NCBI GenBank assembly: GCA_027489365.1
Contig: JAIXZV010000218.1
Location: forward strand, 1-34,101
Length of the DNA: 34,101 bases
Source of the DNA: Sphingomonadales bacterium
Lineage (GTDB): Bacteria > Pseudomonadota > Alphaproteobacteria > Sphingomonadales > Sphingomonadaceae
Direction: 5' to 3'
A program made the position numbers and the translations under genes. Numbering within the stretch: the stretch's first letter is position 1; each line of letters opens with the position of its first letter. A model generated the notes under the pieces. That model saw nothing but the letters and a program-made list of their open reading frames with translations. It made no database searches and was not told where the DNA came from. Below are positions 16,563-23,540 of the stretch, piece after piece.

Positions 16563-17468
16563 TCACTCGACCCAGTCTAGCCCCATTTCTCGGTAGACGT
16601 CGCGCTCGTCGTCCCAGCCCGGCCGGACCTTCACGTGCAGATAGAGGTGCACCGGGCGGCCCATGATGCCGCTCAGTTCGGCACGGGCGCGCGCGCCGAT
16701 TTCCTTGATCCGGGCCCCACCCTTGCCGAGCACGATCGCGCGTTGCGTCGGGCGTTCGACCAGGATCTGCTGGTGGATTTCGACCGATCCGTCCTCGCGC
16801 TCCTTATATTGCTCGGTCTCGATCGCCGAGGCGTAGGGAAGTTCGGCGTGGAGCTGGAGATAGAGCTGCTCGCGCGTGACTTCGGAGGCGAGGCTGCGCT
16901 CGGTCGCGTCGGACACCTGATCCTCGGGGAAATGCCACGGACTCTCGGGCATCCGGGCGGCGAGATGCGCTTTCAGTTCGGGGAGGCCGTCGCCGGTCGA
17001 TGCGCTGACGAAGAAGACTTCGTCGAACTGGACGAGGCCAGTCAGGCGCTCGGCATGGAGCAGCAGCTTGCCCTTGTCGGCAAGATCGACCTTGTTGAGG
17101 ATGAGGTATTTCGGTTCGCGCCGGTCCTTGATGGCCTCGGCAATGGTGGTGACTTTGCTACCGAGCCCGCCCTTGGCATCGACCACCAGTGCGAGCACGT
17201 CGGCCCCCTCGGCTCCGCCCCAGGCCGCCTGCACCATCGCGCGATCGAGCCGGCGCTTGGGCTCGAAGATACCGGGGGTATCGACCAGCAGGAGCTGCGT
17301 ATCGCCCTCGATCGCCACGCCCATCAGCCGCACGCGCGTCGTCTGCGCCTTGGGGGAGACGATCGCGACCTTCTGCCCGACGAGCGCGTTGACGAGCGTC
17401 GATTTGCCGGCGTTGGGCGCGCCGAGGATTGCGACGAGGCCGCAGCGTTGGGGGGTGGGTTCGGTCAT
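16563..17468 (-). CDS. era: GTPase Era
   Basis: G1 GAPNAGKSTLVNALVG, G3 VDTPG, NKVD, KH-domain VLGKGGARIKEIG; start shares 4 nt with upstream GIY-YIG stop. Confidence 0.97.
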   Translation of the reverse strand: MTEPTPQRCGLVAILGAPNAGKSTLVNALVGQKVAIVSPKAQTTRVRLMGVAIEGDTQLLLVDTPGIFEPKRRLDRAMVQAAWGGAEGADVLALVVDAKGGLGSKVTTIAEAIKDRREPKYLILNKVDLADKGKLLLHAERLTGLVQFDEVFFVSASTGDGLPELKAHLAARMPESPWHFPEDQVSDATERSLASEVTREQLYLQLHAELPYASAIETEQYKEREDGSVEIHQQILVERPTQRAIVLGKGGARIKEIGARARAELSGIMGRPVHLYLHVKVRPGWDDERDVYREMGLDWVE

Positions 17469-17860
17469 TGCGGGTCCTTGGGCGGGGCGGGTCCTCCGAC
17501 AGGCTCGGTGCGAACGGAGGGGGTGCGAGAGCTGTCCTCCCAACCCGTTCGCCCTGAGCCTGTCGAAGGGCTCGCCTGATCTTGGCGATTGCGTGCCAGT
17601 AAGGAAAGCCTTTCCCAATCGCCAGCGATCAGTGCTTCCTTCTTGGCGCGGGTCCAGCCTTTGATGCGGCGTTCAGCTTCGAGTGCTTCGATCCTAGTGG
17701 GGAAGTCCTGCGTCCAGACCAGGATGACCGGGCGACGTTTGTGGGTGTAGCCGGGTATCTGGCCGGTCTGGTGCTGGCCGATGCGTTGTTCGAGTGCATC
17801 GGTATGGCCGACATAATAACCGCCATCGGAACAGCGCAGGATGTAGGTCCAGAATGCCAT
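17465..17860 (-). CDS. GIY-YIG nuclease family protein
   Basis: FWTYILRCSDGGYYVGHT...RIGQHQ...RPVILVWTQDF...EALEAERRIKGWTRAKKEALI; lies between rnc and era. Confidence 0.93.
   Translation of the reverse strand: MAFWTYILRCSDGGYYVGHTDALEQRIGQHQTGQIPGYTHKRRPVILVWTQDFPTRIEALEAERRIKGWTRAKKEALIAGDWERLSLLARNRQDQASPSTGSGRTGWEDSSRTPSVRTEPVGGPAPPKDPQ
17493..17520. repeat. outer palindrome variant, era side of GIY-YIG module
   Basis: CCTCCGACAGGCTCGGTGCGAACGGAGG. Confidence 0.7.
17545..17571. repeat. inner inverted repeat, copy 1
   Basis: CCGTTCGCCCTGAGCCTGTCGAAGGGC; exact reverse complement of 17886-17912. Confidence 0.95.
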
Positions 17861-17885
17861 TCCCGGCCTCCCTCGTGGTGCACGG

Positions 17886-17912
17886 GCCCTTCGACAGGCT
17901 CAGGGCGAACGG
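17886..17912. repeat. inner inverted repeat, copy 2
   Basis: GCCCTTCGACAGGCTCAGGGCGAACGG; exact reverse complement of 17545-17571. Confidence 0.95.
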
Positions 17913-17940
17913 TAGGTGGGTGACGCGCGCCAAAATGATC

Positions 17941-17965
17941 GTTCGTGCTGAGCGTGTCGAAGCAC
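17941..17965. repeat. outer palindrome variant, rnc side of GIY-YIG module
   Basis: GTTCGTGCTGAGCGTGTCGAAGCAC, abutting the rnc stop codon. Confidence 0.75.
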
Positions 17966-18631
17966 CTATCTGAGCTTCCCCAACAACGCCGCCGCCGCCG
18001 CGGTCTCCGCTTCCTGCTTCGAACTGCCCTCAGCCTCGGCCTCCGCAAACGTCCCGAGCATCGCCTTCACCCGGAAGCGCGGCGCGTGGTGCGGGCCGGA
18101 GCGTTCGACCACTTCATACGCCGGGGCCTTGCGATTGTGCGCGGCGGCCCATTCCTGCAGCGCGCTTTTGGGGTGTTGCGGAGCGGAGAGCACGCGGCTG
18201 GCGCGGTCACCCCAGGCGCTGCGGATGGCGCGGCGCGCGCCGTCGAGGCCGGTTTCGAGATAGAGCGCGCCGATCAGCGCCTCCATCACGTCGCCCAGCA
18301 CATTGTCCGAATCCGACGCGCCATCGTCGCGCGCTTGCTTACCGAGACGCAGATGCGCGGCGACGCCGAGGCCGCGCGCGACATCGGCGCAGATCGCGCC
18401 GGTCACCAGCGCGTTGAACCGCTTCGACAGCGCGCCTTCGGGCTCTTGCGGGAAGAGTTCGAACAGCCATTCCGCCATGACGAGGCCGAGGACGCGATCT
18501 CCGAGGAATTCGAGCCGTTCGTAATTGGCCGCCGCCTGACTGCCATGCGTCAGCGCGCGCTCGTACGGCGTCAGATCGACCGGCCGATGCCCGAGCGTCG
18601 CGGTCAGCCAGTCGCGCAAGGACTCGCTCAA
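17966..18631 (-). CDS. rnc: ribonuclease III
   Basis: NYERLEFLGDRVLGLVMAEWLF, DVMEALIGALYLE, dsRBD C-terminus; TTG start overlapping the lepB stop (TTGA) inferred. Confidence 0.95.
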   Translation of the reverse strand: MSESLRDWLTATLGHRPVDLTPYERALTHGSQAAANYERLEFLGDRVLGLVMAEWLFELFPQEPEGALSKRFNALVTGAICADVARGLGVAAHLRLGKQARDDGASDSDNVLGDVMEALIGALYLETGLDGARRAIRSAWGDRASRVLSAPQHPKSALQEWAAAHNRKAPAYEVVERSGPHHAPRFRVKAMLGTFAEAEAEGSSKQEAETAAAAALLGKLR

Positions 18632-19458
18632 AACCCCTCCCCGATCCGGTTCCAGCGCGCCGCCGAGAACCACGTCCACGGCAGGAACCAGTTGGCCGAG
18701 CCATCGGTCGAGAAGAACGACACCATCGCGCGGCCCTCGATCCGCTCCATCGGGACATAGCCCATGCCCTGCGGCGGATCGAACCGGCTGTCGCCGCTGT
18801 CGTCGCGATTATCGCCCATCACGAAGACGTTGCCGGCGGGGACCATATATACGCCGGTATCGTCGGCATTGGGTTGCTCGCCGCGATCGAGCACGGCGTA
18901 GCTCTTGCCGTTCGGCAAGGTCTCGCGGAATTGCTGGTAGCGGCAGACGGGCTTGCCATCCACGCTGTCCTCAAATTCGGTCGGACATTCGCTGCCGCCG
19001 GGATAGTTCGGACTGAGCGGGATGATGAAATCGGCGATGCGCTGTTTGGGGATCGGCGTACCGTTCAGGATCACCTGCCCGTTCCGCATCTGGATCGTAT
19101 CGCCGGGCAGGCCGATGACGCGCTTGATCACGTCATGATCATTGCCTTCGGGTCCGCGAAACACCACGACATCACCGCGTGCCGGATCGCGCCCGAGGAT
19201 GCGGCCGGGCAGCAGCGGCACGCCCCACGGCAGCGACCAGCGCGAATAGCCGTAATTCCATTTCGACACGAACAGATAGTCGCCGATGTAGAGGCGCGGC
19301 AGCATCGATTGCGACGGGATGCTGAACGGTGCCACGATAAAACTGCGCAGTACGAACACGATCAGCGCGAGCTTCAGGAAGAAGACGAGCGTCTCGCGCG
19401 TTTCGGAGCGCGGCGGTTTCGCGCGCTTGATCCGTGTGGGTTTGTCGGTGTCGGCCAT
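18628..19458 (-). CDS. lepB: signal peptidase I
   Basis: FIVAPFSIPSQSMLPRLYIGDYLFVSKW, RGDVVVFRGPEGNDHDVIKRVIGLPGD, FVMGDNRDDSGDSR. Confidence 0.97.
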   Translation of the reverse strand: MADTDKPTRIKRAKPPRSETRETLVFFLKLALIVFVLRSFIVAPFSIPSQSMLPRLYIGDYLFVSKWNYGYSRWSLPWGVPLLPGRILGRDPARGDVVVFRGPEGNDHDVIKRVIGLPGDTIQMRNGQVILNGTPIPKQRIADFIIPLSPNYPGGSECPTEFEDSVDGKPVCRYQQFRETLPNGKSYAVLDRGEQPNADDTGVYMVPAGNVFVMGDNRDDSGDSRFDPPQGMGYVPMERIEGRAMVSFFSTDGSANWFLPWTWFSAARWNRIGEGF

Positions 19459-23137: not shown

Positions 23138-23171
23138 CGTCACCCCGGCCTTGTGCCGGGGTCCACCGTGC
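23138..23171. repeat. hairpin palindrome, left arm of GIY-YIG module
   Basis: CGTCACCCCGGCCTTGTGCCGGGGTCCACCGTGC; internal stem ACCCCGGC/GCCGGGGT; exact reverse complement of 23507-23540. Confidence 0.97.
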
Positions 23172-23177
23172 AGCAAG

Positions 23178-23501
23178 ATGCCACGCATGACGATCGAGCG
23201 CGTCCCCTGCGTCTACATTTTGGCGAGCGGCTATAATGGTCGGCTCTACGTCGGCGTCACGTCGAACCTGATCGGCAGGATTTTACAACATCGCGCCGGG
23301 ACGTTCGACGGGCATACCAAGAAGTACCAGATAAAGCGGCTCGTCTATTTCGAAACCGCCGACACGATGGAATCCGTCTTTGCCCGCGAAAAGCAGTTGA
23401 AACGCTATCGGCGAGACTGGAAGCGCAATCTCATCGAGCATGAGAATCCGGCGTGGAATGACCTTGCGGTTGGGCTCGGCCTACCGCCCTTGGCTGGGTG
23501 A
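23178..23501 (+). CDS. GIY-YIG nuclease family protein
   Basis: VPCVYILASGYNGRLYVGVTSNLIGRILQHRAG...KRLVYFETADTMESVFAREKQLKRYRRDWKRNLIE. Confidence 0.95.
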   Translation: MPRMTIERVPCVYILASGYNGRLYVGVTSNLIGRILQHRAGTFDGHTKKYQIKRLVYFETADTMESVFAREKQLKRYRRDWKRNLIEHENPAWNDLAVGLGLPPLAG

Positions 23502-23506
23502 TCGCG

Positions 23507-23540
23507 GCACGGTGGACCCCGGCACAAGGCCGGGGTGACG
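23507..23540. repeat. hairpin palindrome, right arm of GIY-YIG module
   Basis: GCACGGTGGACCCCGGCACAAGGCCGGGGTGACG; 34/34 inverted match to 23138-23171. Confidence 0.97.

Follow-up and report, generated by a model that had tools for sequence, protein, structure and literature searches.

A GIY-YIG nuclease gene enclosed by opposed repeats between rnc and era in a Sphingomonadales bacterium: a probable REP–nuclease module

The space between rnc and era in this Sphingomonadales genome harbours a small GIY-YIG nuclease gene enclosed by opposed copies of a dispersed repeat, and the locus is best explained as a REP–nuclease module. The encoded protein would be a hairpin-specific, probably single-strand nuclease that is cognate to its own REPIN family and perhaps aids the spread of that family, an explanation held here with reasonable confidence. 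The window, i.e., the whole stretch of DNA analysed (34,101 nt), carries the minus-strand gene order lepB–rnc–[GIY-YIG]–era, with an rnc–era gap at 17469–17965 (Table 1) between two genes that are both essential. The boundaries given in a preliminary description of this DNA (17966 for the end of rnc and 17468 for the start of era, two minus-strand genes) were confirmed, as were the perfect 27-bp inner inverted repeat and the divergent, opposed outer pair.

Table 1. Positions of the genes and repeat units of the two modules in the window.
Feature	Position	Strand	Remarks
GIY-YIG nuclease gene	17465..17860	minus	PF01541 (Pfam), E=3e-19; 131 codons; domain at residues 3–74
Inner repeat unit, era side, family A (CCGTTCGCCCTGAGCCTGTCGAAGGGC)	17545..17571	plus	motif match 17546–17568
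Inner repeat unit, rnc side	17886..17912	minus	perfect 27-bp inverted partner of the era-side unit; motif match 17889–17911
Outer repeat unit, era side	17494..17516	minus	divergent, 2 mismatches to motif
Outer repeat unit, rnc side	17940..17962	plus	motif match; divergent outer pair, opposed
rnc (RNase III), upstream neighbour	17966..18679	minus	
era (GTPase), downstream neighbour	16563..17468	minus	start overlapped by GIY-YIG stop
Second GIY-YIG gene, 104 aa, paired with family D	23187..23501	plus	
Family D REP (CGTCACCCCGGCCTTGTGCCGGGGTCCACC)	23138..23174	plus	CGTC-tagged
Family D REP, opposed partner	23504..23540	minus	

The motif of the rnc–era repeat, termed family A, matches the window at four units around the GIY-YIG domain and nowhere else, with a chance expectation of 0.03 and four matches in 0/100 shuffles. 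The open reading frame extends through both era-side repeats, so that the C-terminal tail of the protein is repeat-encoded, and ends in a TGA that shares an ATGA with the start of era; the rnc–era modules of two related genomes (G010 and G012) likewise run through the era-side repeats and share the ATGA overlap with era. The four units had been described as palindromic. They are indeed four units of one motif, but a single unit is only a weak palindrome, built of CCGTTC followed by a 5-bp stem that encloses an 11-nt loop, and does not fold significantly (z −0.7). Significant folding appears as a dimer only, paired units folding strongly both in a REPIN at another genomic position (z −6.5) and in the rnc-side pair (z −4.8). 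As judged from sequence, the fold of the GIY-YIG proteins is clear, and the motif residues (Y, Y-x-G, R, H, and E) are invariant in an alignment of 12 proteins. NCBIfam gave no name above its cut-off for either GIY-YIG protein of the window.

The second module, at 23138–23540, had been regarded as having the same architecture with another repeat. The layout is similar, with family D in place of family A, but only one repeat pair is present there instead of two and, thus, the two architectures are similar and not identical. Moreover, the family D hairpins have an 8-bp stem, unlike the weakly palindromic single units of family A, and combine the CGTC tag, 8–9 bp stem, 4–5 nt loop, and CCA tail of CGTC REPs, a set of features that family A lacks. 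Both modules, 5 kb apart, are real; however, they are two of six such modules in the genome and not the only two cases.

This genome is a 3.9-Mb draft in 421 contigs, about 87% complete, with seven PF01541 matches corresponding to six small genes and uvrC. Judged by its gene content and by similar loci in named genomes, it probably belongs to Sphingomonas. All six small genes are enclosed by opposed copies of dispersed repeats of at least five kinds, whereas uvrC is not. Two of the six are of the family A type (the rnc–era gene and a longer variant at trmJ), and around the remaining four the repeats belong to families B, C, and D or consist of a GTCATCCCCGCGAAAGCGGGGACCCATC unit. When up to 3 mismatches are allowed, the genome contains the family A motif 164 times (reversed-pattern control: 1); the family D motif was located at 41 places (control: 0). 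These REP units are abundant and mostly intergenic. Away from genes, the units form head-to-head dimers, namely 25/26 pairs of family A and 17/17 pairs of family D among the fetched loci, and this use of opposed REP dimers as the repeat unit is the REPIN arrangement. In the multi-genome sample described below, the unit nearest the gene points tag-outward in 84/90 cases, which is the orientation seen in REPINs, and thus the GIY-YIG gene is found where a REPIN would have its spacer.

The preliminary description had proposed a general repeat–nuclease pairing with cognate palindrome specificity, and its generality is borne out in a sample of 41 Sphingomonadales genomes (25 of the genus, this one included), which provided 89 small GIY-YIG loci and 24 usable uvrC loci. 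Taking an inverted-repeat score of at least 20 across the gene as the sign of opposed repeats, 61/89 small GIY-YIG loci qualified, versus 0/24 uvrC loci and 2/1306 displaced control positions; mixed flank pairs from the same genome reached this score in 7/228 cases. The other 28/89 small GIY-YIG loci score below 20, some of them being divergent or other GIY-YIG proteins. In two loci (L143 and L141) an in-frame stop interrupts the GIY-YIG domain while opposed repeats still flank it, and these are apparently decaying modules. The pairing of nuclease and repeat is therefore far beyond chance. Accumulation of repeats in intergenic space, where they would merely happen to border small genes, might be imagined since REPs are abundant and largely intergenic (PMC3733652), but this explanation is refuted by the controls (0/24 and 2/1306) and by the clade-specific matching described below, and its probability is negligible.

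The repeat is also matched to the protein. From the nearest protein in a different genome, the repeat family was predicted correctly in 43/45 cases (27/29 without family A), a result with p of about 1e-23 against a chance level of 0.25, relatedness not being corrected for. The repeat was more similar for the closest protein in another genome than for the closest paralogue in the same genome in 53 comparisons versus 6. Protein distance and repeat distance were correlated (Mantel rho 0.34, 0/999 permutations) and the copy number of a repeat was higher in genomes that have its clade (p 1e-4 to 2e-3, 41 genomes), also in a test within the genus (B.003, D.004, E.005, A.016, C not significant); neither the correlation nor the copy-number tests are corrected for host phylogeny, so that relatedness inflates both, and the copy counts take in the few units beside the gene. 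Within the genus, the link between clade and copy number is most specific for clades B, D, and E. Some genomes retain numerous repeats although no cognate GIY-YIG gene is recognised in them; among these, G016 holds 43 units of a family C variant, mostly ending in CATCTC, as an orphan repeat population. These comparisons show that repeat sequence tracks protein clade, and the match extends to unrelated sites, as the CGTCATTCCCGCG repeat is found with the same protein clade in further families of the order and in other phyla. The proposed cognate specificity thus holds in that the protein predicts the repeat family, while specificity in the biochemical sense is presumed. Relatives do not uniformly carry a repeat-free gene at the rnc–era junction, nor do the GIY-YIG clades vary independently of the repeat type.

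The explanation favoured here assigns the following role to the enzyme. With the gene sitting inside an opposed REP pair in REPIN orientation, where it takes the position of the REPIN spacer, the enzyme may recognise its own REP as single-stranded hairpin DNA, such as that of the lagging strand or of transformation or repair intermediates, and nick next to it. Nicking beside the REP could keep the gene and its repeats matched and, directly or via host recombination, might help short REPINs to spread as non-autonomous derivatives, a role that would parallel that of RAYTs for GTAG REPs. The conserved sites of the modules, repeat-rich genomes such as G016 in which no cognate gene is recognised, and the 28/89 loci scoring below 20 count against it. 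A stronger version, in which GIY-YIG proteins are the missing mobilising enzymes of both the CGTC-type REPs and family A of the Sphingomonadales, and REPINs derive, as non-autonomous forms, from a GIY-YIG mobile element replicating by single-strand hairpin cleavage, is offered only tentatively; to our knowledge, no transposition chemistry of this kind has been described for the GIY-YIG fold.

A nuclease that moves no repeats is also conceivable, although clearly less probable than the favoured explanation. Such an enzyme would cut REP-bearing single strands and modulate DNA uptake or recombination, as Ssn and its NTS repeats are said to do in Neisseria, and the REPs would spread otherwise and be kept as targets. 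The cognate pairing fits this possibility equally well and the conserved home sites suggest a domesticated role, but neither the REPIN orientation of the gene nor the tracking of gene presence by copy number is explained by it alone.

Mobilisation of the REPs by a RAYT or another transposase, with the GIY-YIG gene as a hitchhiker, has to be considered as well since RAYTs are held to mobilise REPINs in gammaproteobacteria (PMC3116915, PMC2817692). However, Y1/RAYT transposases were found neither in this genome (G000) nor in 22/24 congeners, and the Y1 loci that were found carried none of these repeats. The absence in G000 alone is weak because the draft is about 87% complete, but the congeners agree. 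Moreover, CGTC REPs are only fortuitously associated with other transposases (Di Nocera 2013, PMC3733652). Action of a RAYT in trans is thus largely refuted by this survey of the Y1/RAYT class, and the hitchhiker explanation is very improbable.

Several clades hold a conserved home site across species. The trmJ site of the module is shared by 10 genomes and the rnc–era site by 4, and the sites of clades B, E, and C recur in 10, 9, and 4 genomes, respectively. This marked positional orthology indicates that the modules are largely inherited vertically, and the many modules at conserved sites imply that the gene itself moves rarely. At trmJ, a 353-aa open reading frame of this genome (L002:1495-2556, contig C1) joins a GIY-YIG domain to a SpoU-type RNA methyltransferase (TrmJ-like), both recognised by Pfam. 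This GIY-YIG–TrmJ-like frame is open in nine genomes (also L069, L070, L073, L074, L075, L076, L080, and L097), and its linker contains a repeat-encoded peptide in most of them. In two further loci (L086 and L118), a family A module lies directly upstream of a start that resembles DnaG primase by eye, the GIY-YIG stop overlapping its first codon.

Comparison of rnc–era junctions, suggested in the preliminary description, revealed that, among genus genomes with a readable junction, four (G000, G010, G011, and G012) carry the module. The others lack it, and their junctions measure about 7 to 60 bp or are longer gaps without the gene. Some gene-free junctions contain repeats, namely REPINs of different families in L182, L186, and L192 and a single unit in L193, and thus repeats have arrived at this junction on more than one occasion. 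In genomes from other families of the order, the two genes almost touch or overlap. A single origin of the rnc–era module may be compatible with the poorly resolved family A tree. A genome from a different family of the order (G026) has a clade B-like GIY-YIG gene (L102) at a distance of about 2 kb from rnc, and this gene seems to have reached the neighbourhood independently.

These junctions bear on a further alternative. GIY-YIG enzymes include homing endonucleases, and a homing-like selfish nuclease could have been inserted into pre-existing REPINs serving as its recognition sites. The location of the gene between two putative target copies in REPIN orientation and the gene-free REPINs at the rnc–era junction of relatives would suit such an enzyme. 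Homing endonucleases reside in an intron or intein or spread into empty alleles; here, the gene stands free between genes. Nevertheless, the gene occupies few sites while scores of REPINs are empty, and its sites are conserved between species; insertion by homing is therefore considered unlikely.

The association reaches well beyond the order. A cross-phylum set of 77 usable loci (80 named genome records), picked by one peptide pattern and thus not a random sample of the superfamily, covers alpha-, beta-, gamma-, and deltaproteobacteria, Nitrospira, candidate phyla, and others. Opposed repeats (score of at least 18) were found at 50/77 of these loci versus 9/778 control positions, and the GTC tag is present in 46 of the 50. 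Families C, D, and E and most cross-phylum loci share the GTC tag, 8-bp stem, 4–5 nt loop, and CCA tail of the CGTC REPs (PMC3733652), and head-to-head dimers have been shown for family D, whereas family A has neither the CGTC tag nor an 8-bp stem and the exact tag is mostly missing from family B. In alphaproteobacteria, CGTC REPs are widespread. They were described as having no association with transposase genes and seemingly no dedicated transposase, so that the enzyme serving them, if any, was left open (Di Nocera et al. 2013, PMC3733652); in the present loci, GIY-YIG genes are enclosed by such REPs. Small GIY-YIG nucleases are thus likely partners of the CGTC-tagged REPs left without an enzyme in 2013, and the clade-matched partner makes this question directly testable. 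In addition, the five repeat families, with several paralogues per genome, constitute a natural nuclease–target panel for how GIY-YIG nucleases read DNA.

Among known systems, the structures closest to the rnc–era protein are those of the UPF0213/YhbQ type (PDB 1ywl and 1zg2, E about 1e-13), although these are named merely as hypothetical UPF0213 proteins. We know of no repeat partner for this type. The RAYT–REPIN system (PMC3116915, PMC2817692) shares with the modules a conserved gene bordered by its own REP, genome-wide opposed REP dimers, and gene–repeat co-divergence, but the enzyme here is a GIY-YIG nuclease and not a Y1 (HUH) transposase, which offers a second enzyme fold for a relationship of this kind. 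A literature search found no paper linking GIY-YIG proteins to REP, RAYT, REPIN, or Sphingomonas palindromes.

Another close parallel is Ssn. A 2025 paper in Nature Communications reportedly describes Ssn proteins as a widespread family of GIY-YIG enzymes that cut single strands site-specifically, have cognate NTS repeats in Neisseria, and include homologues of other specificities. The system so reported shares with the modules a small stand-alone GIY-YIG protein, a many-copy cognate repeat, and homologues differing in specificity. Here too, the GIY-YIG domain stands alone with intact motif residues and a clade-matched repeat in many copies lies beside the gene; moreover, a Neisseriales locus (Silvimonas, L274) is flanked by CGTCATTCCCGCGCAGGCGGGAATCCAG. 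On this account, the repeat–nuclease pairing is probably known in kind. The modules, whose nuclease activity is a predicted one, differ from Ssn in the coexistence of six pairs in this one genome, the REPIN dimer layout with the gene inside, the non-CGTC family A, and the fusion to and coupling with host genes. The REPIN anatomy, the six coexisting pairs, the identity of the repeats as CGTC REPs, family A, and the absence of RAYTs look like additions to what the Ssn system offers.
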